From the NCBI RefSeq assembly GCF_002224645.1, contig NZ_CP022121.1, forward strand, positions 3,631,501 through 3,695,500: 64,000 nt of DNA, written 5' to 3'. The notes under the pieces were generated by a model that saw nothing but the letters and a program-made list of their open reading frames with translations, was not told the origin of the DNA and ran no database searches. Both the position numbers and the translations under genes were made by a program. This stretch comes from Dehalobacterium formicoaceticum. GTDB lineage: Bacteria > Bacillota > Dehalobacteriia > Dehalobacteriales > Dehalobacteriaceae. Below, piece by piece: positions 43,819-62,936 of this stretch (positions are counted from its first letter, which is position 1; each line of letters opens with the position of its first letter).

Positions 43819-43862
43819 ACCTATGATTTTAGGTTTGATGGTAGGAAAAAGGAGCAGCAAAC

Positions 43863-44810
43863 ATGGGAAACTTTATTTATTTTACAATTCAAATTATGAT
43901 GATTGTACTTCTGGCACCTTTAGTGAATGGCATTATCAAGAAAATAAAAGCCTTAACACAAAAGAGAACAGGTGCCCCCATTCTTCAGATGTATTTTGAC
44001 CTATATAAATTACTTAAAAAAAGTGTTGTTATTTCTCAGACATCATCCTGGATATATCATGTCACGCCTTATTTAGTTTTTGCAACTGCCCTGGCAGCAG
44101 CATTGTTGGTGCCCGTTTCCACTATGGTTACCCCTACCTCCTTTCCCGGAGATGGTATTATGCTAATTTACATTTTCGTCCTGACCAGGTTTTTTATTAT
44201 GCTGGCAGGATTAGATACTGGCAGCACCTTTGGAGGAATGGGCAGCAGCAGAGAGGGGATGATCTCCTCACTGATAGAACCATCCATGCTAATTTCTCTA
44301 TTCACCATCGGGCTGATTTCTAAGTCTACCTCAATTTATCAAATGATGAGTACAGCAAAATTATTAGAGATACCCTTAGTACAACCTGTTTACCTAATGA
44401 TTTTTATTGCCCTTTTGGTAATCATCATTGCCGAAACCTCCCGGATCCCGGTAGATGATCCAGCCACACACCTTGAATTAACCATGGTGCATGAGGCCAT
44501 GATGCTGGAATACTCCGGCCGGCACTTGGCTTTGATGGAATTGGGTGCTGTGATCAAGCAGCTGGTTTTAATCACCCTATTAGCAAATGTTTTCCTCCCC
44601 CATGATCAGCTGATTCACCTGACCGGGATGGGAGCCTTGATTCTTTCTCTGCTGTTTTATATCATCAAGGTGATTTTACTGGCTGTTCTGATTGCCCTCA
44701 TTGAGGTAAATACCGTAAAATTACGTCTCTTCAGCGTGCCAAATTTGGCGGCTTTATCATTTATTTTATCCTTTTTAGGTTTTATAAATTATTTCCTGCT
44801 GGGAAGATAA
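43863..44810 (+). CDS. Ehr/hydrogenase-4-like subunit (HyfC/NuoH-like)
   Basis: 315 residues with about eight membrane helices. It matches the NuoH family that joins the membrane arm to the catalytic arm: KRTGAPILQMYFDLYKLLKK near the start and IAETSRIPVDDPATHLELTM in the fourth helix region (conserved acidic residues facing the quinone chamber). Known: HycD/HyfC-type subunit. AAAGGAG precedes its ATG. It lies between the HyfB-like and HyfE-like genes. Confidence 0.9.
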   Translation: MGNFIYFTIQIMMIVLLAPLVNGIIKKIKALTQKRTGAPILQMYFDLYKLLKKSVVISQTSSWIYHVTPYLVFATALAAALLVPVSTMVTPTSFPGDGIMLIYIFVLTRFFIMLAGLDTGSTFGGMGSSREGMISSLIEPSMLISLFTIGLISKSTSIYQMMSTAKLLEIPLVQPVYLMIFIALLVIIIAETSRIPVDDPATHLELTMVHEAMMLEYSGRHLALMELGAVIKQLVLITLLANVFLPHDQLIHLTGMGALILSLLFYIIKVILLAVLIALIEVNTVKLRLFSVPNLAALSFILSFLGFINYFLLGR

Positions 44811-44839
44811 TATCTTGTTTGACAAAGGAATGAAAAACG

Positions 44840-45496
44840 ATGACAAATTTTCTAGATACCTTATCTTTATTAGTTTTACTAACCGCCTTTATTCTCATTG
44901 CCAATAAAAGGATCAAATCTTATATTAGAACATTTCGACTGCAATCATTGTTTATTGCCATAGGGGCAGGGATAATTGGTCTGGAAAGCTTTGCTCAGGA
45001 AGGACGCTTTGATGCTTTGATCCTAAGCGTGATCATGATCATCTTAAAAGTAATCTACATCCCCAACCTCTTAGATAACACTTATGCCCATGTGGATCAC
45101 ACGGTGGAAAAGGACTTCTTCCTTAATATACCTATTTTAATTTTTATTTCCTTTCTGCTATTTTTATTTTCTTACTTCTCCTTCTCCTCCATTGAAGGCC
45201 TCCATGAAGGGAAGGTCAACCTACAGATGATCAATTTGGTTTCTGTGGTTTTAATCGGACTCTTCTTTATGATTACACGCAAAAAAGCAATTGGGCAAAT
45301 CGTGGGCTTTTTAGTTCTGGAAAATGGTCTTTTTGCTACTGCCATGTTTGTTACCCAAGGAATGCCGTTCATCGTGGATCTGGGGATTTTTATTGATCTC
45401 CTCACAGGGGTACTAATTATGGGTTTAATGGTTTTTAAGATTAATGAAAAATTTGATTCAATTGACATTAATAAAATGAAAAATTTGAGAGGATAG
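44840..45496 (+). CDS. Ehr/hydrogenase-4-like subunit HyfE (NuoK-like)
   Basis: 218 residues, six or seven membrane segments. The C-terminal half, including GFLVLENGLFATAMFVTQGM and the conserved Glu-containing helix, matches the NuoK/MrpC-like HyfE family. Known: part of the membrane arm next to antiporter subunits. It ends in TAG five bases before the next ATG. Confidence 0.85.
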   Translation: MTNFLDTLSLLVLLTAFILIANKRIKSYIRTFRLQSLFIAIGAGIIGLESFAQEGRFDALILSVIMIILKVIYIPNLLDNTYAHVDHTVEKDFFLNIPILIFISFLLFLFSYFSFSSIEGLHEGKVNLQMINLVSVVLIGLFFMITRKKAIGQIVGFLVLENGLFATAMFVTQGMPFIVDLGIFIDLLTGVLIMGLMVFKINEKFDSIDINKMKNLRG

Positions 45497-45500
45497 ACAG

Positions 45501-46973
45501 ATGGGACTTTTCTTGCTGATGATACCGTTAATCACAGTGCTTTTAGCATTGGTAATTAAAAACAGACGCTTGCTTCATGGGTTAAGTCTGTTCACCTCCG
45601 CCCTATTGTTCATGGTTGCTATCGGGCTAACAAAAAAAATCCTTCTTTGGGGTCAAATCAATGAACCTACCTGGAATGGTTTCTTTTACGTCGATGCATT
45701 AAGTATCATCGTCCTGGACATTGTGATTATCCTGGGCTTTTTGGTCAGTATTTACTCTGTAGGATACCTTGAAGAAGACGTGCGTCAAGGGAAGATTGAT
45801 GAAAAAAGAATCCGCCTATATTACATTCTCCTCTACGCTTTTATTTTTACCATGATTCTATCCCTAACAGTGAAAAATATAGGAATTATGTGGGTGGCGA
45901 TTGAGGCAACAACCCTGGCCTCTGTCTTTTTAGTGGGCTTTTATAATACCAAAAAAGCTCTGGAAGCTGCCTGGAAATATGTTATTATCTGCTCTGTAGG
46001 CATTTCTTTGGCATTTTTAGGAATCATTTTCCTTCATCTTTCCTCCTTAGGAGTACTGGGTAAGGAACAATTCCTGGATTGGACTGCATTATTCGCTCAG
46101 GCAGAGGCATTAAAAAGCCCCCTGTTAAGGTTATCCTTTCTATTTATCCTTGTGGGGTTTGGCACCAAAGCGGGGTTGGCACCAATGCACACCTGGCTGC
46201 CCGGTGCCCACAGTCAGGCGCCGTCTCCTATCAGCGCTCTTCTTTCCGGCGTGCTCTTAAACAGCGCGATGTATGGCATTATGCGCTCGGTAGCCATAGT
46301 GAATAAAAATCTCGCCGGCAGCACTTTTACCGGCAATCTTTTAATAGCTGCCGGCCTCCTATCCATCGGAATTGCTGCTGTGGTTATTATTTCGCAAAAG
46401 GAATATAAAAATCTTTTAGCCTATTCCAGCATTGAACATATGGGGATCATAGCCTTTTCATTAGGTCTTTTTACCCCGGCCTCTATTTTTGGTGCCTTGC
46501 TTCATATGATAAATCATTCTTTGACCAAATCCATGTTGTTTTTTGCTACAGGAAATATTTTGCACACTTATCATACGGGACGGATTTCAAAAATTAAGGG
46601 TATCCTGAAAAGAATGCCTGTTTCCGGTACTGCTTTTCTTCTTGGCCTGTTTGCCATTGCCGGAACTCCCCCTTTTAGTATTTTTGCCAGTGAGGTAAAC
46701 GTTATCGCTGCTGTTTTTTTAAATGGCAGATTTATCATCGGAGCAATATTTGCCTTTCTACTGGCCGTTATTTTTGCTGGGATTGTTTTTAATATGCTGC
46801 CCATGTTCTATGGCGAAAGTGCAGATGAAGAAATCCCTGTTCAAAAAAACAATCTCCTTGGCACCGGAGCAATTTTGCTTCTGCTCATTTTGATCTTGAT
46901 CACCGGTTTTTATCTGCCCAATGACCTTAAGGAACTGATTTACAGCGCGCAACGGATTATGATGGGGGAATAA
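45501..46973 (+). CDS. Ehr/hydrogenase-4-like antiporter subunit (HyfF/NuoN-like)
   Basis: 490 residues, about 14 membrane segments. FLFILVGFGTKAGLAPMHTW followed by LPGAHSQAPSPISALLSG is the antiporter-subunit signature with conserved Lys and His. Second copy of this family in the operon. Known: extra proton channel of HyfF/MrpD type. It overlaps nothing but is spaced only four bases from both neighbours. Confidence 0.9.
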   Translation: MGLFLLMIPLITVLLALVIKNRRLLHGLSLFTSALLFMVAIGLTKKILLWGQINEPTWNGFFYVDALSIIVLDIVIILGFLVSIYSVGYLEEDVRQGKIDEKRIRLYYILLYAFIFTMILSLTVKNIGIMWVAIEATTLASVFLVGFYNTKKALEAAWKYVIICSVGISLAFLGIIFLHLSSLGVLGKEQFLDWTALFAQAEALKSPLLRLSFLFILVGFGTKAGLAPMHTWLPGAHSQAPSPISALLSGVLLNSAMYGIMRSVAIVNKNLAGSTFTGNLLIAAGLLSIGIAAVVIISQKEYKNLLAYSSIEHMGIIAFSLGLFTPASIFGALLHMINHSLTKSMLFFATGNILHTYHTGRISKIKGILKRMPVSGTAFLLGLFAIAGTPPFSIFASEVNVIAAVFLNGRFIIGAIFAFLLAVIFAGIVFNMLPMFYGESADEEIPVQKNNLLGTGAILLLLILILITGFYLPNDLKELIYSAQRIMMGE

Positions 46974-46977
46974 GATT

Positions 46978-48561
46978 ATGATATACAGGAGTTTTAGCAA
47001 AATAATTTCCGCAAAGTTTGCCGAACACATTTATCACCAAAAAGTTGCCCATGCAAACGAATTTTATCTGGATGTTAATCCAAAGAAGCTTCGGGAAATA
47101 GCCACTTATATCTATCAGGAATTAACCTTTCCCCTAATTTCCATATTTGCCAATGATGAGCGGAACTTGTCCGGGAAATTCGCCCTTTATTATGTTTTTG
47201 CTGAACGCAAGCAAGGATTACTGATCATCATCAAAACATCTGTCTCACCGGAACATCCAGTCTTTACATCTATTGCCGTGGAAATCCCCGGTGCTGCCGC
47301 CTATGAAAGAGAAATCCATGATTTATTTGGTCTCTTCCCCCTGGGGCATCCTGATCCTAAAAAGTTGGTATTTCATAGCAACTGGCCGGAAGGTACCTTT
47401 CCCCTGCGCAAAGATTTTAATGGGCAGCACAGGCCTCCTTATGCCAATCATGAGTTGCGCTTTACCCAGATCATGGGGGAAGGGGTTTATGAGATTCCCG
47501 TGGGACCGGTGCACGCCGGCATCATCGAACCGGGGCATTTTCGTTTCAGCGTTGCCGGTGAGCCGATCATCAATCTGGAAGCACAGCTTTTCTTTGTACA
47601 TAAAGGCATTGAAAAAATGTGTGAAGGCCGCTCGATAGAACACTGCCTTTATGTGGCGGAACGAATCTCCGGAGATGAGACCTTCGCCAACTCCCAGGCT
47701 TATTGCCAGGCAATAGAGAAAATTGCCCATGTAACTATTCCGGAACGAGCTATGTATACCAGGGTCATTTTCGGAGAACTGGAACGTCTCACCAGCCATT
47801 TAGGAGATCTGGCGGGGATTTGCCAGGATGTAGCTTACGGTTTTGCAGCTTCCCAGTTTAATATGATGCGGGGCTGGGCTTACAACCTGGCCGACGAACT
47901 ATGTGGGATGCGGTTTTTACGCAGTGTGAACAAGTTGGGAGGCTGCCGCTTGGATTTTGTTGCCGGCAAGGAAAAAAAGATCCTGCAAGGCATGGAAAGG
48001 CTTAAAAAGGAATTAACCGATACCATTACTATTATCCAAGGGAAAAGCATGTTTATAGACCGGGTGGAGCACACGGGAATTCTGGATCACCAAATTGCTG
48101 TGGACTTGAACACCGTTGGTCCCGGAGGACGGGCTTCAGGGATCCTCTATGATGTGCGTAAATCCTTCCCTTACGAAGTATACGATAAACTCCATTTTTC
48201 CATCCCGAACCATAAAAACGGAGATGTGAACTGTCGTATGAATGTAAAAATTGAGGAATGCTTGGCTGCATTGGAGATCATTTATCAAGCTATCGAAGGT
48301 ATGCCTCAGGGAAAAATCCGGGAACCCCTAAACGAAGTGCCTCCTTATCAGTTTGCTTTCGGCCTGACAGAGTCTCCTCGGGGAGAAAATGTCCATTGGA
48401 TCATGACGGGAGAACATAACACCCTATTCCGCTATAAAATCAGAACTCCTTCCTTCTGCAATTGGCCGGCCGTATGTCATGCTGTCAAGGGCAACATCGT
48501 ACCAGATTTTCCTTTGATTAATAAAAGTTTTAATTTATCCTATGCAGGAAACGATCTGTAG
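46978..48561 (+). CDS. Ehr large subunit: NuoC-NuoD fusion lacking Ni-ligand cysteines
   Basis: 527 residues. Residues 1-165 are NuoC/HycE-N-like (EREIHDLFGLFPLGHPDPKK); the rest is the NuoD/hydrogenase large-subunit fold. In [NiFe] hydrogenases the motif near the start of this fold is RxCGxC; here the aligned sequence is ERISGDETFANS, with Ser and Glu in place of Cys. The C-terminal DPCxxC is replaced by NLSYAGND, again no Cys pair. So it cannot hold a Ni-Fe site in the normal way. Known: such proteins occur in energy-converting-hydrogenase-related (Ehr) complexes. It ends TAG, in frame with the next gene. Confidence 0.9.
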   Translation: MIYRSFSKIISAKFAEHIYHQKVAHANEFYLDVNPKKLREIATYIYQELTFPLISIFANDERNLSGKFALYYVFAERKQGLLIIIKTSVSPEHPVFTSIAVEIPGAAAYEREIHDLFGLFPLGHPDPKKLVFHSNWPEGTFPLRKDFNGQHRPPYANHELRFTQIMGEGVYEIPVGPVHAGIIEPGHFRFSVAGEPIINLEAQLFFVHKGIEKMCEGRSIEHCLYVAERISGDETFANSQAYCQAIEKIAHVTIPERAMYTRVIFGELERLTSHLGDLAGICQDVAYGFAASQFNMMRGWAYNLADELCGMRFLRSVNKLGGCRLDFVAGKEKKILQGMERLKKELTDTITIIQGKSMFIDRVEHTGILDHQIAVDLNTVGPGGRASGILYDVRKSFPYEVYDKLHFSIPNHKNGDVNCRMNVKIEECLAALEIIYQAIEGMPQGKIREPLNEVPPYQFAFGLTESPRGENVHWIMTGEHNTLFRYKIRTPSFCNWPAVCHAVKGNIVPDFPLINKSFNLSYAGNDL

Positions 48562-48576
48562 AAAGGAATACACAAA

Positions 48577-49371
48577 ATGTTTGATATGATTAAAAAAATT
48601 GTCCAATATCCTCGTATCACAAGGAAATACCCTAAAGAAGCTTTGGATCACGGTCCAATTCTGGGTAAGCCGGAAATAGATTCGGCCCAATGCACCTTCT
48701 GCGGTGCTTGCATCCTCAGCTGCCCTGCTTCCGCCATTGTGATGGTTACGGAAAAAAAAGAGATCGGAATCAATCTGGATCAGTGTATCTTCTGTACCTT
48801 ATGCAGCGAGATTTGTCCTGTAAATGCTGTTCGAATCACCCATGAGGTGGAATTAGCCGTCAAAAATCGGAATGACCTGCGCAAAACACCTGCAGTGATC
48901 GAAAAGCAAGATATACCCGGTCTATCTTATGAAATCATGGGAGAAAAAATTCAGCAGAAAGCACGCCAAACCTTTGGCCGCAGTCTGCAAATCAGAGAAG
49001 TTGACGCCGGTTCATGTAACGGCTGTGACTATGAAATTAATTCATTGAATAATCCGGTAAATGACCTGGAAAGGTTAGGCATGCATTTTGTTGCTTCCCC
49101 CCGCCATGCAGATCTATTATTGGTAACGGGAACCGCCACCAGAAATATGGAACTGGCATTGGTGAAAACGTATAATGCCGCCCCTGACCCCAAGTTGGTT
49201 GTCGCCGTAGGTGCCTGCGCCTGCAGCGGAGGAATTTTTCGTGATAGTTACGCCACGAGAAACGGAATCGATTGTATCCTGCCAGTGGATGTATACATTC
49301 CCGGTTGCCCTCCTCGACCGGAGGCTATCATGTACGGTATTCTAAAAGCCTTGGATCGAATCATTGATTGA
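48577..49371 (+). CDS. Ehr small subunit: NuoI ferredoxin-NuoB fusion
   Basis: 264 residues. The first half has two 4Fe-4S motifs, CTFCGACILSCP and CIFCTLCSEICP, as in NuoI/HyfH. The second half is NuoB/HyfI-like with SCNGCDYEIN, GACACSGG and PGCPPRPEAIMYG, giving the four cysteines of the proximal cluster. Known: this passes electrons from ferredoxin or another donor to the large subunit. In most group 4 hydrogenases these are two proteins; here they are one. Last gene of the operon. The 156 bases after it hold no gene. Confidence 0.92.
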   Translation: MFDMIKKIVQYPRITRKYPKEALDHGPILGKPEIDSAQCTFCGACILSCPASAIVMVTEKKEIGINLDQCIFCTLCSEICPVNAVRITHEVELAVKNRNDLRKTPAVIEKQDIPGLSYEIMGEKIQQKARQTFGRSLQIREVDAGSCNGCDYEINSLNNPVNDLERLGMHFVASPRHADLLLVTGTATRNMELALVKTYNAAPDPKLVVAVGACACSGGIFRDSYATRNGIDCILPVDVYIPGCPPRPEAIMYGILKALDRIID

Positions 49372-50103: not shown

Positions 50104-50799
50104 ATGAAGCAGCCGATCTTATGTTTGAAAGAGATTCCCTTGTTTGAAGGGCTTAGTACCTCTGAATTTAATGAAATCTGTCCCGGTGTCATCAATAAAT
50201 CCGTCAATAAAGGACATTTTTTATTTCGGCAGGGAGATAATGATGATTCTGTTTATCTGGTAAAAATGGGGCGTTTAAAGCTCCTCCAGAATTCAGCAGA
50301 GGGCAAAGAAACCATCGTCACATTTATCGGCCCCGGGGAAGTAGTGGGGGAAACAAATCTCTTCCGAAAACAGCAGCAAATGTTTAGCGCCCTAGCGATT
50401 GAGGATGTGCGGTTGCTCGGCTTCAGGAGAGAAGATTTAGAAAAGATCATTGAAATGAATCCTCAATTTGCTGTTAAAATCATCTGCCATTTGTCACAAA
50501 AATTAAACACAGTAATGCAGCAAATAAGTGACTATAAAGGAACTTCTGTCAAAGAGAGGGTGCTAAAATTATTCCTGCGCTTGACTAATGAGTATGGAGT
50601 TCTTACCAATGATGGAGTCTTAATCCGGATGCATATTACTCAACAAGAACTAGGGGATATGATTGGCGCCTCCCGGGTCATGGTAGCTCAGGTCATGAAA
50701 GAACTGAGGGATGTAGGTATCTTAAACCAAAAGGGAAAATACTATATGATCAAAACAGATTTTTGTATGAAACATGCGATGGAGAGCGCATCAAAATGA
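50104..50799 (+). CDS. Crp/Fnr family transcriptional regulator
   Basis: 231 residues. A cyclic-nucleotide-binding-like beta-roll (GHFLFRQGDNDDSVYLVKMG) is joined by a long helix to a winged helix: HITQQELGDMIGASRVMVAQVMKEL contains the recognition helix. No Fnr-type N-terminal cysteine cluster is seen, so it is not an iron-sulfur Fnr; ligand unknown. The stop overlaps the ATG of the first radical SAM gene by four bases, making it part of that operon and its probable regulator. Confidence 0.9.
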   Translation: MKQPILCLKEIPLFEGLSTSEFNEICPGVINKSVNKGHFLFRQGDNDDSVYLVKMGRLKLLQNSAEGKETIVTFIGPGEVVGETNLFRKQQQMFSALAIEDVRLLGFRREDLEKIIEMNPQFAVKIICHLSQKLNTVMQQISDYKGTSVKERVLKLFLRLTNEYGVLTNDGVLIRMHITQQELGDMIGASRVMVAQVMKELRDVGILNQKGKYYMIKTDFCMKHAMESASK

Positions 50800-52109
50800 G
50801 AATTTTGCTGGTGCGTCCCCCGGCTGCCTCATTCATTTCTCATCTGAAATTGGTTCAAGTTGAGCCTTTGGAATTGGAAATTTTGCTTGCCGCTGTGACA
50901 AAAATGGGGCACCTGGCAGAGATTCATGATGCCATGACAAATAAGAAAAATTTTCGCTCCATCTTAAAAGAATTTAAACCTGATGTGGTAGCCATCACCG
51001 GTTATATTACCCAAAAGAGCTTTATGATCAATTATGCCAAAATCACCAAGGCTTACCATCATCAAATCCAGGTTTTGATCGGCGGCGTTCATGCAGAAAT
51101 CAACTACCGGGATTTTTTCCATCCTGCTGTGGACTTGATCGTCCATTCCGGCGGGGTTCGTCCTTTTCAAGAGGTTTTAAAGCTGATCAGCGAAAATATG
51201 TTGGAACAAATACCCCAAATCCCGGGCATCTGTTATCACCAACATGATCACGAATGGTCCTGTAATAAAAAAATTCCTCTTAACCCTGATGAAACGCCCA
51301 ACCCTGATCGAAGTTTTTTTTACCGGCATCAGCATCATTTTAATTACCTTTATTTTCGGCCCTGTGCCCTGGTAAAGACTTCTTATAGCTGTCCTCATCA
51401 TTGTAATTTCTGTTATTGCTGCTTGTTAAATCAGGGACGGTATCTGTGCCGGGATCTGAATAGTGTAATCGAGGAGATATCTTCTATTGAGTGTGAAAAC
51501 ATCTGGCTTGTTGACGATACCTTTTATCAGGATCTTCCTCGTCTGAAAGCTTTTATCCGCATGATCCGGGAAAGACAAATCAAGAAAAATTTTATTCTCT
51601 ATTATCGGGCAGATTTTGTGGCCGCTAATGAAGACCTCATCGTTCGTTTAAAAGAAATCGGTTTAAAAATGGTGATTATCGGCTTGGAGGCCTTTGACGA
51701 CCAGGCTCTGGCAGGTTATGATAAGAATACCTCTGCCGCGGTCAATGAAAAGTGTCTCGCCATCTTAAAAAAGCATGATATCGACTGCACCGGTTTATTT
51801 GTTCTGGATATTGACAGCGCAAAAGAGGACTTCGTGCAGCTCTTCCGCTATATCAAAAAACACAGCTTGAATTTATCAACCGTATCGATCCTCACTCCCT
51901 TACCCGGCACAGGACAACATGAAAAATATCAGCACCGCCTGACTGCTTATCACCCGAAACAATGGGACTTTCTTCATCTGGTAGCCAAGCCTGGTAAGAT
52001 TACTAAGGGGAGATTTTATTTTGAATTTTACCGCCTCAACCTGAAGATCTTAATCATGAACATTAAATCAGGTACTTGGAAAAAAGACTTGCGCGGTCGA
52101 TTAAACTGA
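50796..52109 (+). CDS. B12-binding-domain radical SAM protein 1
   Basis: 437 residues from the ATG that overlaps the regulator stop. Residues 1-160 form a Rossmann-like B12-binding domain (MRILLVRPPAAS; VLIGGVHAEINYRDFF) without the DxHxxG ligand motif, as usual for this class. The radical SAM motif is SCPHHCNFCYC (CX3CX2C), within the context RPCALVKTSYSC that is shared with two paralogues in the same operon. NIWLVDDTFYQD is the following conserved strand. Known class members methylate unactivated carbons or act on lipids and natural products; the substrate is unknown here. Confidence 0.85.
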   Translation: MRILLVRPPAASFISHLKLVQVEPLELEILLAAVTKMGHLAEIHDAMTNKKNFRSILKEFKPDVVAITGYITQKSFMINYAKITKAYHHQIQVLIGGVHAEINYRDFFHPAVDLIVHSGGVRPFQEVLKLISENMLEQIPQIPGICYHQHDHEWSCNKKIPLNPDETPNPDRSFFYRHQHHFNYLYFRPCALVKTSYSCPHHCNFCYCCLLNQGRYLCRDLNSVIEEISSIECENIWLVDDTFYQDLPRLKAFIRMIRERQIKKNFILYYRADFVAANEDLIVRLKEIGLKMVIIGLEAFDDQALAGYDKNTSAAVNEKCLAILKKHDIDCTGLFVLDIDSAKEDFVQLFRYIKKHSLNLSTVSILTPLPGTGQHEKYQHRLTAYHPKQWDFLHLVAKPGKITKGRFYFEFYRLNLKILIMNIKSGTWKKDLRGRLN

Positions 52110-52132
52110 ATGTCAAAATCAATAGGTGGTTT

Positions 52133-53227
52133 ATGGAACTAAAATTTGTCACGACAAAAAATGAAATCAAGCAATTTATCGGCTTGGGCAAGGAAATTTA
52201 TCAGGGAAACCCCTATTATCGGGACTCCATGTCTGAGATCCTGAAACTTTTTCTTGATCACAAAACCTGTTATTTGAAAAATGGCTCTTTCTTTCCTTTT
52301 ATCGTGCAAGATCAGCATCAAAACAAAATACTTTTGAGAGCTGCCTATATGATCAACCGGAAAATGCCGGATACACTGATGATTGCCTTCTTTGAAGCCG
52401 CAAAAGACGTCCCGGAAGCCGTCTCCATCATGCTTGAGGAAGGCAGAAAGATCGCCGCCCTTCATCAATGCACCAGCATGGTCATCGGTTTGGACGGCCA
52501 CATCAATTACGGGTTGGGGTTCCTGGCATCTCATTTTGATGTTACCCCCTGTTTCGGTTTTCCTTACAGCCCGGAATATTACCTGGACTATTTTCGTGGT
52601 TTAAAAGCATATCAGTTTACTTCTTTTTTAACTGATCTTAGTCAATTTAACCTGAAAAAGGAAGAGACGATTTTAAGACGTCTCCAAAGACATCAATATA
52701 TCTTTCGCTGTGCCGACTTTAAACAATTTGATCGGGAGCTGAAGATCTACACAGACTTGAATAACGATGCTTTCCAAGACCATTTGTGGTGGGCAGACCG
52801 GAGCTATGAAGAAGATTATGAACTTCTTTACCCTTTTCGCCGGTTTATCCGGGGAGAAAACCTGCTCATTGCCGAAAAGGCAGGTATACCCATCGGATTT
52901 ATGCTTTGGTATCCGGATTTTAATCAATTAATCCCTCCCGGCAAGGGCTTAGGCCTCCAAGCCCTGGTCAGAAATAAGCTGGGCGGAAGGCAAAAAATTG
53001 ATCGCTTGAAAATTGCAGAAATCGGCATAAAACCGGAATACCAGGGTACCGGCGCGGTATTAGGTCTCTTTGCTCTCCTTTATCAATTGGTTGGTGGAAG
53101 GTACCGCTACTGTGAGGCCGGATGGGTGGAAGAAAACAACCTCAAATCAAAAGGCCTGGGTATGCACTGGGAGCAGGTTGGGTGTCAGGAATATAAAAAA
53201 TACAAGGCTTTTCAGATGATGCTATGA
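52133..53227 (+). CDS. GNAT-like N-acyltransferase family protein
   Basis: 364 residues from the ATG behind AGGTGG; an upstream TTG adds 19 codons but overlaps the preceding gene. The C-terminal half contains a GNAT-like core (LIAEKAGIPIGFMLWYPDFN; KIAEIGIKPEYQGTGAV), including an RxxGxG-like acyl-CoA loop in modified form. The N-terminal part (NEIKQFIGLGKEIYQGNPYY) resembles uncharacterised YghO-type proteins. Function not recognised. It overlaps the next gene by four bases (ATGA). Confidence 0.6.
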   Translation: MELKFVTTKNEIKQFIGLGKEIYQGNPYYRDSMSEILKLFLDHKTCYLKNGSFFPFIVQDQHQNKILLRAAYMINRKMPDTLMIAFFEAAKDVPEAVSIMLEEGRKIAALHQCTSMVIGLDGHINYGLGFLASHFDVTPCFGFPYSPEYYLDYFRGLKAYQFTSFLTDLSQFNLKKEETILRRLQRHQYIFRCADFKQFDRELKIYTDLNNDAFQDHLWWADRSYEEDYELLYPFRRFIRGENLLIAEKAGIPIGFMLWYPDFNQLIPPGKGLGLQALVRNKLGGRQKIDRLKIAEIGIKPEYQGTGAVLGLFALLYQLVGGRYRYCEAGWVEENNLKSKGLGMHWEQVGCQEYKKYKAFQMML

Positions 53228-54213
53228 TATGGGTGGAATTTAACCGGGCTCAGGACATCCCTGGCAGCTGGGACAATCTAACCGGCGCAAATATTTTTTT
53301 AAAAAGAGCTTTTTTAGCCCACTTAGAAAAGACCAATCCCTGTCAGCAGCGTTACCGCATGCTCTTTGACGCCGGGATGCTTCAGGCACTTTATGTGGTC
53401 TACCAACTGAAACTAAATGTTTTCACTTATCGGTCCTTACCCCTGAGAATTCCTGTGCTAATTATTGGTATTCCCTGTTCTGTGGCAAAACAAGGCTTTG
53501 TCGTTCAGGAAGGATATGATCAATTCTTAGCAGATGACATTCACTCCCGGAAAGGGGCTCATCTGATCTTAAACAGTACAACATCTTTACCGGGCAAATC
53601 AGGAGCAACCCTGCCCTCCTGCCACTTAGACCTTGCCTGGAAAAGCATGGATCAATATTTGGCTGCTCTGCGCAGTCATTACCGTTATCGATTGAAGAAA
53701 GCCCGTGCTAAATGGCAGGACGTAAAAGTGGAGTTGATTAAACCGAGGCAATTTGAGCCCATCCTCTATCAGCAATACCTTGAAGTTTATCAAAGATCAC
53801 AATTTAAGCTGGAGCAATTGAGCCTGGATTTTTTTCGGAATCTGCCTCTTCCAGCCCAAGTAATCAAGGCCAGCTTCCAGGACCAGGTGCTGGGGTTTGC
53901 CCTTCTAGTCGAAAACGGTGCTGAGTTGGTTTTTCTTTTCACCGGGTTTGACCATGCACTAAACCCCTCCTTAGACATTTACCTGAATCTGTTACTGGAG
54001 GTCATCAACTATGGATTAATACATGATTTTAAAGTGATTGATTTTGGTCAAACCACAGAGGAGATCAAGGAAAAACTGGGTTGCCGTTTACAGGAGAAGC
54101 GCATGTGGCTTTTTCATTCCAACCCTTTCCTTCATAATTTAGCCAACCGGTTGCTGGGATTTTTAGAATATCAAAAGCTGGAACACCATTATCGGGTTTT
54201 TATTGAGAGATGA
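53224..54213 (+). CDS. FemAB/GNAT-like acyltransferase
   Basis: 329 residues. Residues 145-300 resemble the second GNAT fold of FemAB/BioF2-like proteins: YLAALRSHYRYRLKKARAKW at the start, QVLGFALLVENGAELVFLFT in the core, and KVIDFGQTTEEIKEKLGCRL near the end. Known members attach amino acids or acyl groups to lipids or peptidoglycan precursors. The target is unknown. It sits in the operon between another acyltransferase-like gene and a methyltransferase. Confidence 0.6.
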   Translation: MIWVEFNRAQDIPGSWDNLTGANIFLKRAFLAHLEKTNPCQQRYRMLFDAGMLQALYVVYQLKLNVFTYRSLPLRIPVLIIGIPCSVAKQGFVVQEGYDQFLADDIHSRKGAHLILNSTTSLPGKSGATLPSCHLDLAWKSMDQYLAALRSHYRYRLKKARAKWQDVKVELIKPRQFEPILYQQYLEVYQRSQFKLEQLSLDFFRNLPLPAQVIKASFQDQVLGFALLVENGAELVFLFTGFDHALNPSLDIYLNLLLEVINYGLIHDFKVIDFGQTTEEIKEKLGCRLQEKRMWLFHSNPFLHNLANRLLGFLEYQKLEHHYRVFIER

Positions 54214-54226
54214 GGTAAAAAGCATC

Positions 54227-54898
54227 ATGATCAAAGGTAAACAATCCTGGGATTTTTTGGCACGCTATTATGAGAAATTATGGGTGCAGAAACATTCATT
54301 AAAACCGACCCGACAGTTGATCAGAAGGGAAATCGCAAAATTGGCCGACTCGGACCCGCACCTTCTCAGGGGCGGAAAACTTCTTGATATGGGCTGCGGC
54401 ACCGGTCAATTACTCCAGGAACTGGCGGAAGCTTATCCCCCATCCCGATTGGAACTTACCGGCATAGATGCCTCCCCGGAGATGATCCGTCAGGCAAAGG
54501 CAAAACAGCTTTCAGGAGTAAAATTTCTCGCCGGCGATGTCCACCATCTTCCCTTTCCCGACCATACTTTCGAGATCATTACCTGCTGCCATTCCTTTCC
54601 TTACTATCACAATCAAAGCTTGGCTTTGCAGGAATTAGCCCGGATCATCAAACCAAAGGGGCATCTCCTTTTAATCCAGGCAGTTGAAAATAGTTTTTAC
54701 GATAAAATCGTGATGTCCATGGTGAAATGCACCACCGGTTCTGCAAATTATCTCTCCTCTTCCCAGATCTCAAAGGAATTGAAGGAAAATGGCTTCACTC
54801 CACTAGAAGAAGAAAGATTAAAAACAGTTTTCTATTTCCCCAGTATTGTTTACACTATCTCAACACCAGGAGCAGAACATGAAAATTCTCTTCGTTAG
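54227..54898 (+). CDS. class I SAM-dependent methyltransferase
   Basis: 223 residues from the ATG after GAGG; a TTG eight codons earlier is less likely. It has the UbiE/Methyltransf_11 core: KLLDMGCGTGQLLQELAEAY (motif I), LTGIDASPEMIRQAKA (II), VHHLPFPDHTFEIITC (III/IV). The acceptor cannot be named. The end overlaps the second radical SAM gene by 20 bases. It ends with TAG, followed by TAA five codons later. Confidence 0.82.
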   Translation: MIKGKQSWDFLARYYEKLWVQKHSLKPTRQLIRREIAKLADSDPHLLRGGKLLDMGCGTGQLLQELAEAYPPSRLELTGIDASPEMIRQAKAKQLSGVKFLAGDVHHLPFPDHTFEIITCCHSFPYYHNQSLALQELARIIKPKGHLLLIQAVENSFYDKIVMSMVKCTTGSANYLSSSQISKELKENGFTPLEEERLKTVFYFPSIVYTISTPGAEHENSLR

Positions 54899-56228
54899 AC
54901 CGAAACCTCACCCTAATACCATCGGCTTGCAAAGCATCATGATTTGTGAGCCCTTGGAATTGGAATACTTAGCTGCCGCCATCCAGGATCAGCACCAGGC
55001 AGTACTGGTAGATCTGATTTTAGAGAAAAAACCTCTCACCCATTTTATTAAATTGCATCGTCCCCAGGTGGTGGCATTAACCGCCTATATTGCCCATGTT
55101 AACGTGGTAAAAGACTATGCCCGGATCATTAAAAAAATAGATCCCCAAATTAAGGTTGTCTTGGGAGGGGTGCACGCTGATGTAGTGCCGGAGGATTTTC
55201 TGGATCCCCATATCGACATTATTTTCTCCGGCAATGGCATCAAGAACTTTGCTGCCTTAATGGATCTATGGGAAAAAGATCCTTTGGGATCACTGAAGGA
55301 AAAGATCATTAAAGGACTCGGTGTGCCTGAGATTCCGTCCCTTTTTCCTCTAAGGTCCCTTACCGTGAAATACCGCTCCCGCTATTATTATTTATATCAT
55401 AAGCCTTGCGCCTTACTTAAAACCTCCTATGGCTGCCCCTATTCCTGCAGCTTCTGTTTCTGTCGTCAAATTACCGAAGGTCAGTACCGGGAGCGGGATC
55501 TGGATCAAGTGATCGAAGAATTAAGCGAAATCTCAGAACCGGAAATCTATATTGTGGATGATAACTTTTTAGTGGATCCCCAGCGTGTCGACCGTTTTTG
55601 CACCCTATTAAAAGCACATGGCATTAAGAAAGGTTTTCTGATCTATGGCCGGGCTGATTTTATCGCCCAACATGAGGAAATCATAGCCAAGTTTGCCGCC
55701 CAGGGATTAAGGGCGGTAATTGTCGGCGTGGAATCCCCTAATCCCCGGGAATTGGAGGAATATCACAAAAACAGCAGTGTGGAAATCAATGAAAAGGCCA
55801 TTAAGATTCTCCGCAAATATGGCATCGACTGCTATGCCACGATGATTTTAGGACTGGATTGGGATGACCGTGATTTTGACCATCTCTCTCGATGGTTAAG
55901 GGAGCAAAAGCTGCGTTTTGTCAACCTGCAGCCTTTAACCCCTTTACCCGGTACCCCATTATTTGCTAAGTACCAGGATTCACTGGCAGTACCCCGGGAA
56001 AAATATGAAGAATGGGACTTAGCCAATTTGGTGGTACAACCCACCAGGCTCTCCTTGTCCAGATATTATTATCAAATCTTAAAGGTATATTTTCGGATCA
56101 GTCTCACTCCGGAAAACATCAAAGGAAATCTTAAATACGGGTTTTCCCTCAATCTTCGTATTGCTCTGGGGGTTTTAAGGATTATCCGTCAGTATTTGAA
56201 AAAAATCCTTGGGAGCAAGAAGCCATGA
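54879..56228 (+). CDS. B12-binding-domain radical SAM protein 2
   Basis: 449 residues from the ATG behind AGGAG. Same layout as radical SAM protein 1: B12-binding fold (MKILFVRPKPHPN; KVVLGGVHADVVPEDFLDP), then GCPYSCSFCFC (CX3CX2C) in the shared RPCALLKTSYGC-like context KPCALLKTSYGC, then EIYIVDDNFLVDPQRVDRF. The C-terminal helical region YYYQILKVYFRISLTPENIK is also shared. Paralogue of the two other radical SAM proteins in the operon. Substrate unknown. Confidence 0.86.
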   Translation: MKILFVRPKPHPNTIGLQSIMICEPLELEYLAAAIQDQHQAVLVDLILEKKPLTHFIKLHRPQVVALTAYIAHVNVVKDYARIIKKIDPQIKVVLGGVHADVVPEDFLDPHIDIIFSGNGIKNFAALMDLWEKDPLGSLKEKIIKGLGVPEIPSLFPLRSLTVKYRSRYYYLYHKPCALLKTSYGCPYSCSFCFCRQITEGQYRERDLDQVIEELSEISEPEIYIVDDNFLVDPQRVDRFCTLLKAHGIKKGFLIYGRADFIAQHEEIIAKFAAQGLRAVIVGVESPNPRELEEYHKNSSVEINEKAIKILRKYGIDCYATMILGLDWDDRDFDHLSRWLREQKLRFVNLQPLTPLPGTPLFAKYQDSLAVPREKYEEWDLANLVVQPTRLSLSRYYYQILKVYFRISLTPENIKGNLKYGFSLNLRIALGVLRIIRQYLKKILGSKKP

Positions 56229-57589
56229 AAATTCTCTTGGTACGGCCGGGCAGAAGAAAACAAGCCATTACCTTGGGGGAATTCATGTATGGAGAACCCC
56301 TGGGCTTGGAATCAGTTTTTGCCTTGCTTAAAGAGGAGCACGAATTAAAGGTCTTGGATTTGATGGTGGGCAAGGAGGATTTATTAACCATCTGCGTAAG
56401 CTATCGTCCCGATGTCATCGGCTTTACTTCCTTATGTATTGATGTCCCCGCTGTTCTTGATCTGGCAAAACAGGTGAAGGATCATCATCCCGATGTCATT
56501 ACCATGGTGGGAGGAACCCAAACCTTTCTAGCACCGGAAAGTTTTTTTGTGCCCCAAATTGATCATGTGGCGGAATTTACCACCAAAGAAAACTTAAAAA
56601 CACTCTGCTCTTATCTCCAAAAGAAAGCACAGGTACCTCTGATCGACGGCATCAGAAGCCAAGAAAATCATTTTGAAGGAACTGGCGTAAGGGGTATCAA
56701 CGACTATATTCAACCGGACCGTTCCTGTACCGATCAATATCGAAAATACTACAGCTACTTCGGTTATCGGCCCTGCGCTTTGCTGCAAACCTCCCGAGGC
56801 TGCAGTTCCATGTGTAACTTCTGTCAACGGTGGAAAATTGAGGGCAGTCAGGAAAAAGACGAACCCCTGACGGAGATTATCCGGGAGATTGAGAAAATCA
56901 AGGAACCTAGCATTATGATTATTGATAACAATTTTCTTTATCACCGGGAACGGTTGGAGAATTTTTGCGCTTTGCTGGAGGAGCGGGGAATCAGGAAAAA
57001 TTTCATCTGCTACGGCAGTGCCCAAAGCATCGTGCAAAATGAAACGACCATGAAAAGGCTGGCAGAAAACGGATTAAAGGCTGTGCTGGTGGGCTATGAA
57101 TCCTTTAAAGATGAAGAATTAGCCAATTATCAAAAAAAATCCACCAGGGCAATCAATATCGCAGCCGGAAAAATCCTCAAAAATTATCACATCGATTGCT
57201 GGGCCTCCTTTATCCTTCATCCGGATTGGACTACTCAGGACTTTAAAGAATTCAGGAAGTATCTTAGAATACTTCGGCCGGAAATCTCCTCCCTTACGCC
57301 CCTGACCCCTTTCCCCGGCAGTTTCTTGGCAAAAAAATACCGGGACAGAACCTTGTACCAAAAGGAGGATTATGATCAATGGAGCTATTCCCTGGTGTCC
57401 ATTGCCCCCGGTAATATGAGCCTGCGCCGGTATTATTTTGAGGTTTTACTCTCTAATTTTTATGTCAATCTTTTCATGAATAATGCTTCCTATCTGGTGA
57501 ATAAATTTGGCCTTTGCACCCTGTTGCGCTTATTAAAGGGTTCATTTAAGTTTCTCCTCAGATATCTGAGGTTCATGATCAAAGGCTAA
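56225..57589 (+). CDS. B12-binding-domain radical SAM protein 3
   Basis: 454 residues; the ATG overlaps the previous stop by four bases. B12-binding fold (MKILLVRPGRRKQAITLGEF; ITMVGGTQTFLAPESFF) and radical SAM motif GCSSMCNFCQR (CX3CX2C) after RPCALLQTSRGC. SIMIIDNNFLYHRERLENF matches the strand after the motif in its paralogues. Last gene of the operon. The copper ATPase gene converges with only nine bases between stops, and no terminator is seen there. Confidence 0.86.
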   Translation: MKILLVRPGRRKQAITLGEFMYGEPLGLESVFALLKEEHELKVLDLMVGKEDLLTICVSYRPDVIGFTSLCIDVPAVLDLAKQVKDHHPDVITMVGGTQTFLAPESFFVPQIDHVAEFTTKENLKTLCSYLQKKAQVPLIDGIRSQENHFEGTGVRGINDYIQPDRSCTDQYRKYYSYFGYRPCALLQTSRGCSSMCNFCQRWKIEGSQEKDEPLTEIIREIEKIKEPSIMIIDNNFLYHRERLENFCALLEERGIRKNFICYGSAQSIVQNETTMKRLAENGLKAVLVGYESFKDEELANYQKKSTRAINIAAGKILKNYHIDCWASFILHPDWTTQDFKEFRKYLRILRPEISSLTPLTPFPGSFLAKKYRDRTLYQKEDYDQWSYSLVSIAPGNMSLRRYYFEVLLSNFYVNLFMNNASYLVNKFGLCTLLRLLKGSFKFLLRYLRFMIKG

Positions 57590-57598
57590 TCCAAAGCA

Positions 57599-59152
57599 TT
57601 ATCTTAAAGGTTTATAGCCCTTCAATCGGAGAGCATTAGATACCACAGAGACAGAACTGAAGCTCATGGCGGCACCGGCAATCATGGGATTTAATAATGG
57701 TCCGCCAAAAATATGCAGCACACCCATGGCAATGGGAATCCCTAAGGTATTGTATCCAAAGGCCCAAAAGAGATTTTGCTTAATATTCCTGATGGTCTTT
57801 TTACTTAAATCGATGGCGGTAGGGACATCCATCAAATCACTCCTCATGAGCACAATATCAGCTGATTCCATGGCTACGTCCGTTCCTGAACCGATGGCAA
57901 TCCCAATATCCGCTTGGGCTAAGGCTGGTGCATCATTAATGCCATCCCCCACCATGGCCACCTTTTTCCCTTCTTCCTGAAGTTTTTTCACTTCCTCAGC
58001 CTTATCCTGGGGGAGCACCTCAGCCAGGATGCGATCAATACCAACTTGCTTACCAATTGCTTCCGCCGTTTTACGATTATCACCGGTAATCATGGCAACC
58101 TCGATCCCCATTTCATGGAGTTTTTCGATGGCCTTCTTGCTGTTTTCCTTCACCGTATCCGCCACAGCAATGATGCCGGCGATTTTTTCATCCATGGCAA
58201 TATACATGGGGGTTTTCCCTGCTCCAGCCAGTTCTTGGGCATGTTCCTCCAAATCACCTAAGGATATTTTTCTTTCCTCCATCAGTTTGCGGTTTCCCAA
58301 TAAAAGTTTTTTCGCCTCTATCATCACTTCTATGCCTTGCCCGGGAATAGCCTGAAAGTAATCCAGTTTCATCACAGGTACGCCTTGTGCTTCTGCTCCC
58401 TGAACAATCGCTTCTCCCAGTGGATGCTCCGACCCTTTCTCCGCAGAAGCTGCCCATTGCAACAGTTCGGTTTCTGTAATCCCCGGGATTGGGATCACAT
58501 CTGTAACCTGGGGTTTTCCTTCGGTAATCGTCCCTGTTTTGTCAAACACCACGGTCTGAATCTGATGGGCTGTTTCTAAGGCCGCTCCGCTCTTGATTAA
58601 GACTCCATATTCCGCACCCTTTCCAGTCCCTACCATGATAGCGGTAGGAGTGGCTAATCCTAAAGCACAAGGGCAGGCAATTACCAAAACAGAAATAAAG
58701 ATGGTCAAGGCGAATTCTGCCGTTTCTCCGGACAAATACCAGGCCAAGCCAGAAATTACGGCCAAAGATATCACAATGGGTACAAAGTACCCGGAAATTA
58801 CATCCGCCATTTTCGCAATGGGAGCCTTCGATCCTTGAGCATCCTCCACAAGTTTGATGATTTGTGCCAAAGCGGTATCCTTGCCCACTTTGGTGGCTCG
58901 ATAGCGGATAGTTCCGTTTTTATTGATGCTGGCGCCGATAATGCCGTCTCCCACATTCTTTTCCACGGGAATGCTTTCCCCGGTAAGCATGGATTCATCC
59001 ACGGAAGTGGTTCCAAACACTACCTCCCCATCCACAGGCATTTTTTCACCCGGTTTCACCAGGATGATATCTCCGACTTCCACCTCTTCGATAGCCATTT
59101 CGATTTCTTGATCATCTTTGATTACGATGGCCGTTTTGGGCGTAAGTCCCAT
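57599..59152 (-). CDS. copA: copper-exporting P-type ATPase CopA, C-terminal part (frameshift)
   Basis: 517 residues carrying the catalytic parts: TGES in the actuator domain, [16 protein letters not shown] with the CPC metal site, [10 protein letters not shown] with the phosphorylated Asp, [10 protein letters not shown], and [18 protein letters not shown]. Known: the P1B-type copper(I) exporter. The upstream part is in another frame; the ATG here overlaps that stop (TAATG). Adding one A to a run of five A restores [15 protein letters not shown], the normal CopA sequence. Confidence 0.9.
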
Positions 59153-60042
59153 TAATTTTTGATCGCTTCCGAGGTCTTACCTTTGGAAACGGATTCCAAA
59201 TATTTACCCAGAGTGATTAAAGTGAGAATCACTCCTGCCGACTCAAAATACAAGTCATGAGCATAGCTTGCATTTCCTAAAAAAATTTGAACGGTGGCAA
59301 AAATCCCGTAGAGTACCGCCGCAGATGTCCCGATGGCAATTAAGGAATCCATATTAGGGCTTCTTCTGAACAGGGATTTAAAACCCACGATATAGAAATG
59401 CTTTCCTGCCAAAACAACGGGGATCGTTAAGAATAATTGGGATAAAGCATAAGCAAGTGGATTCATCATCGGACTTAAAAAGTCAGGCAAAGGAAGTCCG
59501 ATCATATGACCCATAGATATATACAGCAAGGGGATGGTAAAAATTGCCGAGATCAGAAACCTGCGCCATAATAGCTTCATTTCCTCTTCTTTTTTCTCTT
59601 TATCAATATCTACGGTTGTTTCTTCATCTAAAACTTGATAGCCCGCATTTTCGATGGCCTTCTTAATCTCCGATATCCGAATTTGAGAGGGATCATAACG
59701 AAAGCTTAATTTTTCCGTCGCCAAATTAACGCCAGCCTCAGTTACCCCCGCCAGTTTCCCGGCAGCCTTTTCCACCCTTCTGGCACATGCGGCGCAGGTC
59801 ATGCCTTCTATTTTTAGGGTTTTAGGCAGAGACTCTGTCAGGGCAATAAATCCGGCCTGTTCCACCGCAGTTTGAATCTCGGCTAAGGATACTTTCCCTT
59901 CATCAAAAGTAATATTTAATTTTTCAGTAGCCAAATTAACATTGGCCTCGGTCACACCCGCTAATTTTTTCGTTGCCCTCTCTACACCTCTGGCACATGC
60001 GGCGCAGGTCATGCCTTCTATTTTCAAGGTTTTATTGGTCAT
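59152..60042 (-). CDS. copA: copper-exporting P-type ATPase CopA, N-terminal part (frameshift)
   Basis: 296 residues: two heavy-metal-associated domains, each with GMTCAACAR (residues about 9-17 and 82-90), then the first four membrane segments, ending at [16 protein letters not shown] and TAA. In other CopA proteins the chain continues directly into [10 protein letters not shown], which is found in the -1 frame. The slip site is C-AAAAA-TTAATG. The same type of lesion occurs in cbiG and cbiL. The two HMA domains share a 36-base identical DNA stretch. Located after csoR, as in many copper operons. Confidence 0.9.
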
Positions 60043-60439: not shown

Positions 60440-60469
60440 GAATAATAAAGAAACCCTCCGATGAGGGTT
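60440..60469 (-). terminator. intrinsic terminator after the selenocysteine-type flavoprotein gene
   Basis: Minus-strand AACCCTC-ATCG-GAGGGTT followed by TCTTTATTATT. It lies 20 bases after the TAA at 60489, which supports that TAA, not the upstream TGA, as the end of the gene. Confidence 0.75.
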
Positions 60470-60488
60470 CTGATAGCTCTGTTCTCAC

Positions 60489-61643
60489 TTAAAGCCAACG
60501 GTTTAACCAGTATTTTTCAAAAGCAATTTTAGCCCAATATGTACTTTTGGCCGGCTTCATTAGGGTAATAAAGGGTCCGGGTTCATGATAATAACGTACT
60601 GTGGAATAACGGGCTCGACCGAACCCGGTATTCATAATTCAGGCACCCTTCCCGGTATAGCGGAATTTTGGATTTAATCCCTGAGCTAAAAGAGCAATAT
60701 TGCGTGCCACCACCTCTCCTTGATAATGAGCAAAAATGCCGGCTTTAGGAGCATAGGCATCGATGACCGGCAGGCGAATGGCTGCAGCATCTCCAATCCC
60801 ATAAATATTGGGATACTTTGTTTCCAGGGTATGGGGATCCACTTCCATATAACCACTGCTGTCAACCAAGTCTGTGTTACGCAGCACCTTCGGTGTCCAA
60901 TGGGGTGCAACACCCAGAAGCAGGCGGGCAGGGATTCTTGTGCCATGATCCAGAACCAGTCCGTCCTTTTCCACCGCCAAAATTTTCGCTTGGGTGATCA
61001 GGTCGATATTTTTCTCATGAAGCATATTGCGGACACTTTGACCTACCCTGGGTTTGGCCAAAGGTTCCGGAGAAAAATCCGGGGTCACTAAAGTCAGCTT
61101 CACCTTGTTTCGAATTCCCCGCTGACGAAAAAACTGGTCCAGTAAAAACATCATTTCATAAGGTGCCGGAGGACATTTATAGGGTACGCTGGAGATAAAA
61201 AAGACGATTTCCCCTGCTTCAAAATGGCTTAACCTATCTTTGATGCTGATAATATCCTCAAATTGATAAGCATTGAAAGCAAATTCTTGAAATCCTGGGA
61301 CAGTTTCCGGATGATATTCAATCCCTAAGGCGAGAATTAAATAATCATATGCTAAAATTTGTTTGTTCGTAATAACCTGCTGATGATCCGGATCAATCCC
61401 TTTCACTTCCTCATGGATAAAGCCAATCTCCTTTTCTCTCAGACATGCAAGGGGGCGCACTATTTCTGACTCTCTGCGGGCTCCGATCATCAGCATGGGA
61501 AAGGAAGGGGTATAATAATGATTTTCCAATCGATCTATAACCGTGACTTCCATGCTTGATCCCATTGTTTTTTTTAATACAGTGGCAGAGACAATTCCAC
61601 CTGTTCCACCACCCAGGATTAAGGTCCTCTCCATTGATTTCAC
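60489..61643 (-). CDS. SQR-like FAD/NAD(P)-dependent oxidoreductase with in-frame UGA (probable selenocysteine)
   Basis: 384 codons. The N-terminus TLILGGGTGGIVSATVLKK is the FAD-binding fold of the sulfide:quinone oxidoreductase family; SVPYKCPPAPYEMMF holds a catalytic-Cys motif (KCxxAPYE), and YGIGDAAAIRLP the second FAD motif. After 334 codons comes TGA (60639-60641) in GKGA-(UGA)-IMNTGFGRARY. The same frame then stays open for 49 codons with typical family features, ending AKIAFEKYWLNRWL and TAA. Family members carry a redox-active Cys at this place. A SECIS-like hairpin follows the UGA. So Sec335 is the likely reading; the alternative is a truncated protein lacking its C-terminal membrane-anchor helices. 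Confidence 0.82.
60605..60632 (-). promoter_or_regulatory. bacterial SECIS-like hairpin
   Basis: Minus-strand stem AATACCGGGTTC / GAGCCCGTTATT, 11 pairs (one G-U) with one C-U mismatch, closed by a GGTC tetraloop. The loop begins 18 bases after the UGA, the same spacing and the same GGUC loop start as the SECIS of E. coli fdhF (established knowledge). Confidence 0.8.
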
Positions 61644-61685: not shown

Positions 61686-62936
61686 TCATGAGCCGGATTG
61701 GGATTGGACTTTTTTCCCAGACTCTATGGTTTCATCAGGGGAGAGGATAACTTCTTCTCCTTCCGTTAATCCATGAAGCACTTCTACCAGATCTCCGCTC
61801 TTGATCCCTGTTTCAATCTCCTTCAGGACAGCTTGCTGATTTTCCACAACAAAAACATAGTCTTTCCCCTGCCGGTCAAAAACTTCCTTTTCGTCGATGA
61901 GTAAGGCTTGTTTTCTTCCGGCCGTTATAATCTTAAGATCCACTTCGTATCCCGGCTTTAAGGTCTTTTCAGCAGCGCTAAAATCAACTTCCACCTTCAC
62001 TCTTTTTTGTTCAATACCCAGCTCCGATACTTTACTGAAGGCCGTGGGATAAATTTTTCGTACCTTGCCTTTCAGGTCATTGATCCCCATGTCTTCATTG
62101 GTGATCAGTACCTCTGCCCCTTCTGTCACATGCCCGATTTTATCCAATAAAATGTCGCTTTCCAGAAAAGTGTCCTCGGCACTGCCGATCTCAAAAAGCA
62201 AGGTACCCGGCTGAACAAAGCTGCCTGCTTTTATTTCCCTGGTCAAAACCAAACCATCAGCAGGGGCTTTAATAACCAAATCTGTGCTTTGCTTTTTCAG
62301 TAAATCAATCTCAGCCTGAATCTGGTTAATTTGCCCCTGCATCTCCTTTTGGACATTAACAGAGGTGCTTTTTTGGGCTTGGGCCAAATCGCTCTTGGCA
62401 GCTTCTGCATTAGCCTTAGCCTGTGCCAATAGCGTCAGGGAATTTCGATAACTATCCAAACTGAGGGCACCGCTGTCATATAGAATCTTGTTGTTTTCCG
62501 CCTGTCTTTGCGTCTCTTGATAAGAAGCCTCAGCTGAACGCAACAGGGCGGCCAGTTTATTGATCATATTTTGGTCCGCCGATTTAGTTGTTTCCTGGTA
62601 CCGTGCTTGTGCCGATTGCTGCTGAGCCTCCAGAGCCTGGATCTGCAAAAGAACTTCCCGATTGTCCATTTTGGCCAGAAGATCCCCGGTATTTACCGGA
62701 TCCCCGACTTCTTTAAAAACCTCCGTGAGAGCTCCTCCCGCCAGTGCATAAACTGCAGCCAACTCACGGGCTTGAACTACCCCGGTTTCTTCCACGTATT
62801 GATAAATATCACCCCGCGTTACCCGGCTAGTTTCTACACTGATACCCTGATCCTGGAAAAAGAACAGATATCCTGCCAGCAGCAGTCCCAAAACTGCCAA
62901 TCCCGCCCCCACAAACTTCTTCTTCATTACGCTCAT
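61686..62936 (-). CDS. HlyD/RND-type efflux periplasmic adaptor protein
   Basis: 416 residues. An N-terminal membrane anchor (VGAGLAVLGLLLAGYLFFF) is followed by a barrel-sandwich domain (VVQARELAAVYALAGGALTE), a long coiled coil of about 110 residues rich in Gln and Ala, and a closing beta-barrel (SGDLVEVLHGLTEGEEVILS). Known: such adaptors join MacB-type ABC permeases for export. The ABC permease follows upstream with a gap of 18 bases. Substrate unknown. Its stop is 42 bases from the flavoprotein start. Confidence 0.86.
   Translation of the reverse strand: MSVMKKKFVGAGLAVLGLLLAGYLFFFQDQGISVETSRVTRGDIYQYVEETGVVQARELAAVYALAGGALTEVFKEVGDPVNTGDLLAKMDNREVLLQIQALEAQQQSAQARYQETTKSADQNMINKLAALLRSAEASYQETQRQAENNKILYDSGALSLDSYRNSLTLLAQAKANAEAAKSDLAQAQKSTSVNVQKEMQGQINQIQAEIDLLKKQSTDLVIKAPADGLVLTREIKAGSFVQPGTLLFEIGSAEDTFLESDILLDKIGHVTEGAEVLITNEDMGINDLKGKVRKIYPTAFSKVSELGIEQKRVKVEVDFSAAEKTLKPGYEVDLKIITAGRKQALLIDEKEVFDRQGKDYVFVVENQQAVLKEIETGIKSGDLVEVLHGLTEGEEVILSPDETIESGKKVQSQSGS

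Follow-up and report, generated by a model that had tools for sequence, protein, structure and literature searches.

The strictly anaerobic, dichloromethane-eating bacterium Dehalobacterium formicoaceticum almost certainly inserts selenium at the active site of a relative of human sulfide:quinone oxidoreductase (SQOR). The gene was found on the reverse strand at 60489..61643 of the window, which is the whole 64,000-nucleotide stretch analysed here (positions 3,631,501 to 3,695,500 of NZ_CP022121.1, in a genome of a single contig of 3,766,545 bp). We hold with good confidence the overall reading that an in-frame UGA is decoded as selenocysteine (Sec), that the product is a flavoprotein of the sulfide:quinone oxidoreductase (SQR) fold, and that its lineage gained Sec independently. 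The evidence was read from sequence and consists of a recoding signature, the selenium machinery, the identity of one alignment column, a conserved active-site pair and the fold.

The open reading frame spans 384 codons from a GTG at 61643. It reaches a TGA at codon 335 (60639..60641, reverse strand), continues in the same frame for 49 sense codons (60492..60638, reverse strand) with full-length homology to SQR C-termini, and ends at a TAA (60491-60489). An intrinsic terminator (60451..60470, reverse strand) with 8 pairs, a loop of 4 and a T-rich tail follows the TAA, and this hairpin folds at -11.5 kcal/mol (z -2.6). Every element of the original prediction at this level, namely the UGA, the 49 codons, the TAA and the terminator, was thus present in the sequence. 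Because the listed GTG overlaps the ribosome-binding site GAGGTGA, translation more likely begins at the ATG at 61634, which yields 381 aa and makes the selenocysteine Sec332.

To place this UGA among homologues, we searched about 600 genomes, comprising relatives and members of the same phylum, together with GTDB contigs, and recovered relatives from 72% identity downward. Nine genomes, spread over at least five GTDB families, had TGA exactly at the codon-335 column: the host, G001, G003 (6,441,270 bp), G087 (also L064), G169, G218, G242, G339 and L062. Sharing of this column by nine genomes is far beyond chance. TGC or TGT occupied it in Desulfosporosinus, Tepidanaerobacter, L049, L051 and the majority of the distant relatives, and the Cys-encoding L049 is congeneric with L047 and L048, which carry TGA. 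Among close orthologues the alternative residue was Cys and never Trp. Plasmid records held only relatives below 60% identity, the best at about 31%.

Had a former Cys codon turned into TGA by nonsense mutation or through an assembly error, leaving a truncated pseudogene, one substitution from TGC or TGT would have been enough, and at least one suspicious indel in the host assembly does break copA at an A-run 1.5 kb away. Such an accident is nevertheless extremely improbable, as nine separately assembled genomes share the TGA, the hairpin codons described below are frozen, and dN/dS in the tail does not exceed 0.28 in any usable pair, a rough figure with dS near saturation. The C-terminal tail is evolving under purifying selection, judging from these pairs. 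The pseudogene and sequencing-error readings were both rejected on the common TGA column and the conserved tail, and there is very little doubt that this is a real selenoprotein gene.

The UGA is followed by a SECIS-like hairpin at 60604..60633 (reverse strand), with an upper stem at 60627-60610 of 7 bp (CGGGUUC/GAGCCCG), a lower stem of 5 bp and the loop GGUC at 60620-60617. The loop lies at +19 to +22 after the UGA, which leaves 18 nt between them, and the element folds as had been claimed. Its minimum free energy is -15.7 kcal/mol, and none of 200 dinucleotide shuffles of a 45-nt stretch folded equally well (z -3.2). Published rules for bacterial SECIS elements ask for a loop of 3-9 nt, a stem of 4-16 bp, a G within loop positions 1-2, a distance of 16-37 nt from the UGA and a minimum free energy of at most -7.5 (PMC13188914). 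All of these hold here, with a loop of 4 (GGUC), an upper stem of 7, a spacing of 18 and -15.7 kcal/mol. Rfam gave no match at the locus, which is uninformative because its SECIS_1 model also matched none of 14 control genomes. At residues fully conserved among the nine distinct TGA genes, synonymous codon identity was 0.76 in the hairpin versus 0.36 in the other conserved columns, and a degeneracy-matched permutation reached this difference in 0 of 100,000 trials (p<1e-5).

The machinery for Sec insertion is complete in the host, where selA, selB, selC (tRNA-Sec) and selD, the four genes whose presence was to be checked, were all found. SelA, SelB and SelD scored 603, 390 and 376 bits against their profiles, and the tRNA-SeC gene has the anticodon tca. 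SelB was above cut-off in all nine TGA genomes, and tRNA-Sec was above the Rfam cut-off in each except G169, an incomplete metagenome-assembled genome (94% complete). As a separate observation, the host selD gene (C1:806763-807683, L074) carries an in-frame TGA of its own, and host SelD is probably itself a selenoprotein.

The hairpin also appeared in genes that encode Cys. Cys genes of Desulfosporosinus and L049 matched 5-6 of the 7 hairpin codons; those of Tepidanaerobacter matched 1-2 of 7, so that the hairpin is lost there, and Tepidanaerobacter had no SelB above cut-off and, where tested, no tRNA-Sec above cut-off. In L066, SelB is present, the column holds Cys and the hairpin is lost as well. 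Cys-encoding orthologues with an intact SECIS-like hairpin were found in L020, L049, L057, L058, L060 and L061, and these hairpins are apparent fossil SECIS elements left after a Sec-to-Cys change. The simplest reading of this pattern would be repeated Sec-to-Cys change with later decay of the SECIS, the direction being our interpretation. One study describes such changes as uncommon in bacteria, with most documented cases in FdhA and SelD (PMC13188914). Separately, L058 (D. fructosivorans) contains at about 11800-12950 ORFs with repeated SLPVWERGLK / VAPGMGAWIE peptides that resemble a translated CRISPR array.

The same comparisons bear on whether another tRNA (Trp, Cys or a near-cognate one) reads the UGA, or whether it is a true stop that yields a functional 334-aa enzyme with a low level of the tail. 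Selenoprotein genes usually show a degree of termination at the UGA, so a truncated product could be made in low selenium. Either alternative is very improbable, since close orthologues have Cys and never Trp, the full Sec machinery is present, and the hairpin is kept alongside TGA but has decayed in genomes lacking SelB. We therefore retain decoding as Sec, and the proposal that Sec replaces a catalytic cysteine gained support from the nine-genome column, the Cys orthologues, the sel genes and the SECIS rules together.

The protein matched Pfam Pyr_redox_2 with 72 bits and FCSD_central just above cut-off. Among sequences with solved structures, human SQOR was the closest, followed by other SQRs and FCSD. 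Residue 335 aligns with the cysteine of human YTSCPL, Cys379 in the numbering of the human enzyme (PMC11039317), and Cys157 aligns with Cys201. An AlphaFold model (AF2) had a pLDDT of 94.8 and a pTM of 0.92 and was confident in the C-terminal tail too, and its best PDB matches in Foldseek were the human, Aquifex and Acidithiobacillus SQRs (TM 0.86-0.90), with type II NADH dehydrogenases and CoA-persulfide reductase as further structural neighbours. An SQR-type FAD fold and two active-site cysteine positions on either side of the FAD, one of them Sec, place the protein in the SQR/FCSD superfamily. The SQR fold with cysteine/Sec chemistry is well supported by these comparisons.

The partner cysteine that had been noted in a KCxxAPYE motif is there, as Cys157 (codon 61173..61175, reverse strand) of KCPPAPYE at residues 156-163. 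Its column is at least 90% conserved (alignment A1), and all close orthologues retain it, whether they have TGA or Cys at the other position. The codon-335 column likewise holds Sec or Cys in close relatives, as expected, with the exception of a sister subfamily of four relatives (L024, L052, L053 and L065) in which both cysteines are gone together, TG replacing KC and Gly-Ala or Gly-Val replacing the C-terminal Cys. Since both active-site cysteines are lost, the predicted enzymes of this subfamily must use a different chemistry, and the paired loss fits a redox pair.

We propose that a SelB-GTP-Sec-tRNA(Sec) complex would recognise the hairpin with its GGUC loop 18 nt downstream of the UGA, so that codon 335 would be translated as Sec and the product would be an FAD flavoprotein of 381-384 aa, folded like sulfide:quinone oxidoreductase. 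Next to the flavin, Sec335 and Cys157 would act as a redox pair, joined either in a selenenyl-sulfide or through a bridging sulfur (Se-S-S). In human SQOR, HS- attacks a Cys379-S-S-S-Cys201 trisulfide, Cys379 carries the sulfane sulfur to the acceptor and Cys201 forms a charge-transfer complex with FAD (PMC11039317). By analogy, HS- could open the Sec335/Cys157 bridge. Sec335, which stands where SQOR has Cys379, would take up the sulfane sulfur and deliver it to an acceptor, and Cys157, in the place of Cys201, would transfer two electrons to FAD. We infer both the sulfur chemistry and its direction from this homology.

The electron acceptor is a different matter. The two menaquinone pathways were traced by their markers MenD and MqnA/MqnD, none of which turned up in the host, G001, G003, G087, G169, G339 or the genome of L062. 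These markers are thus absent from the host and six of the eight other TGA genomes, and neither route to menaquinone appears to be available in seven of the nine; of these seven, four are incomplete or have no stated completeness. G218, G242 and G289 carry MenD, and the Desulfosporosinus genomes carry MqnA/D. A quinone step is doubtful because the markers of both pathways are absent from the host, and its electron partner is probably not menaquinone. The proposal of a sulfur/quinone or NAD(P)H oxidoreductase stood as to the SQR fold and the cysteine/Sec pair, and its quinone half became doubtful. In the host the enzyme may act on polysulfide or persulfide, be coupled to NAD(P)H, or run the reaction backwards, and we know of no description of sulfide oxidation by this bacterium.

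The selenoprotein could be real and yet not be an SQR, acting in hosts that lack menaquinone as a polysulfide/persulfide or selenide-handling reductase or as an NAD(P)H-linked enzyme. We give this somewhat less than an even chance. It draws on the lack of MenD and MqnA/MqnD from three complete genomes (G000, G003 and G339), on the type II NADH dehydrogenases and CoA-persulfide reductase among the structural neighbours, and on the position of the gene directly 3' of iscR-iscS-iscU in G001; it has to accommodate an intact SQR cysteine pair and closest folds that are SQRs. A rather speculative extension is that, without menaquinone, the Sec-Cys pair might serve not sulfide respiration but the reduction of sulfane sulfur (or selenium), or its delivery, for instance to cysteine desulfurase/IscU or SelD systems. 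If this were true, sulfur handling would have drawn in a selenium active site on two occasions, each with a SECIS element that evolved on its own.

Gene-context analysis gave at most a weak hint towards sulfur metabolism. Genes for cysK, a Cys/Met metabolism enzyme and iscU lie about 6-8 kb upstream of the selenoprotein gene, and only in G001 does the gene come immediately after iscR-iscS-iscU. The adjacent upstream gene (61686..62936, reverse strand, 42 bp away) encodes a HlyD/MacA-like membrane fusion protein, part of a MacB/FtsX ABC transporter, and co-transcription with it is possible. We looked among the relatives for a conserved neighbourhood from which function could be read as an operon; the neighbours differ, and the HlyD-like gene is not kept. 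Downstream lie csoR and then a broken copA. The latter (57599-60042, reverse strand), which encodes a Cu+ P-type ATPase carrying two HMA domains, breaks into two ORFs near 59152 at an A-run (ATCAAAAATTAATGGG). A single-base indel is the probable cause, whether introduced in assembly or present in the cell as a genuine frameshift. Elsewhere in the window, the forward strand carries at 41740-49371 a gene run that, from ORF sequences only, resembles a group 4 (Hyf/Ech-like) membrane-bound hydrogenase, and at 50763-57589 several consecutive cobalamin-binding radical-SAM-like proteins with methyltransferase and acyltransferase-like ORFs.

We compared the protein with NCBIfam NF049943 ("type III sulfide quinone reductase, selenoprotein subtype"). 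The source of this model is a deep-Sep prediction of a Desulfosediminicola NAD(P)/FAD-dependent oxidoreductase (PMC12013277), and the type has been listed with the Sec motif HxxU (PMC13188914). Several NF049943 members with TGA at HATU occur in the phylum sampled around the genome of L067. Membership of the D. formicoaceticum protein was rejected, as it scored 248 bits against a curated cut-off of 525; three other TGA members that were tested scored 228-262. In the tree, the two Sec groups form separate clades among Cys relatives. An AU test rejected a joint clade of both (p=4e-6) and also a single Sec clade inside the family of the D. formicoaceticum protein (p=7e-8), with p-values that are somewhat optimistic, the groups having been chosen after seeing the tree. 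The second rejection implies that Sec and Cys were interchanged several times within the family.

Descent of both groups from a common Sec ancestor would account for the identical column and the identical loop letters GGUC. We consider it unlikely, since the SECIS loop sits at +18 here versus +25 there and each clade is surrounded by relatives with Cys; in addition, the AU test (p=4e-6) rejects one joint clade, though not a very old Sec ancestor followed by many losses. Sec gained independently of the NF049943 subtype is the best supported reading. The original prediction of a new selenoprotein thus stands for a new, apparently independent Firmicute lineage, as judged by score, clade and SECIS, and has to yield in that a Sec-containing type III SQR had been predicted before (NF049943). 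We found no characterised Sec-containing SQR in the literature; the DCMF copy may have been curated earlier, in a study that lists Sec/Pyl genes (PMC6778437).

Sec would have replaced the cysteine that carries the persulfide in the SQR family twice, in clades far apart whose SECIS elements sit at different positions, and this makes a clean example of convergence from Cys to Sec. In the present clade Sec and Cys have been exchanged several times, with hairpins persisting in Desulfosporosinus Cys genes. Standard gene calling stops such ORFs at the UGA, and the curated NF049943 cut-off would not rescue them. The role of selenium is directly testable through the trisulfide chemistry of human SQOR.

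Comparisons with known systems place the protein as follows. The E. coli fdhF SECIS also has a GGUC loop, equally far from its UGA; the stem sequence here differs and lacks a clear bulged U in the upper stem. The TIGR03385 selenoprotein (FAD-dependent oxidoreductase / CoA-disulfide reductase) is likewise a two-dinucleotide-fold FAD oxidoreductase with Sec, but it has another Sec motif, UGxP (PMC13188914), and the present protein matches that model with 38 bits versus 579. Human mitochondrial SQOR (6oi5, 6oi6, 8dhk) is the best match among solved structures in both structure and sequence, and its Cys201/Cys379 align with Cys157/Sec335; at about 24% identity it differs in having Cys in place of Sec and in working with coenzyme Q in mitochondria. 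NF049943 shares the fold and family, Sec in the identical alignment column (HATU versus GKGAU here) and a GGUC SECIS loop. It differs in its HxxU motif, against a KxxU-type motif (GKGxU) here, and in its hairpin GAGAAGG-GGUC-CCUUCUC with the loop at +25 in place of +18. Its Cys members are about 33% identical to the D. formicoaceticum protein, whose clade is distant from NF049943 and lies within the host's own phylum.
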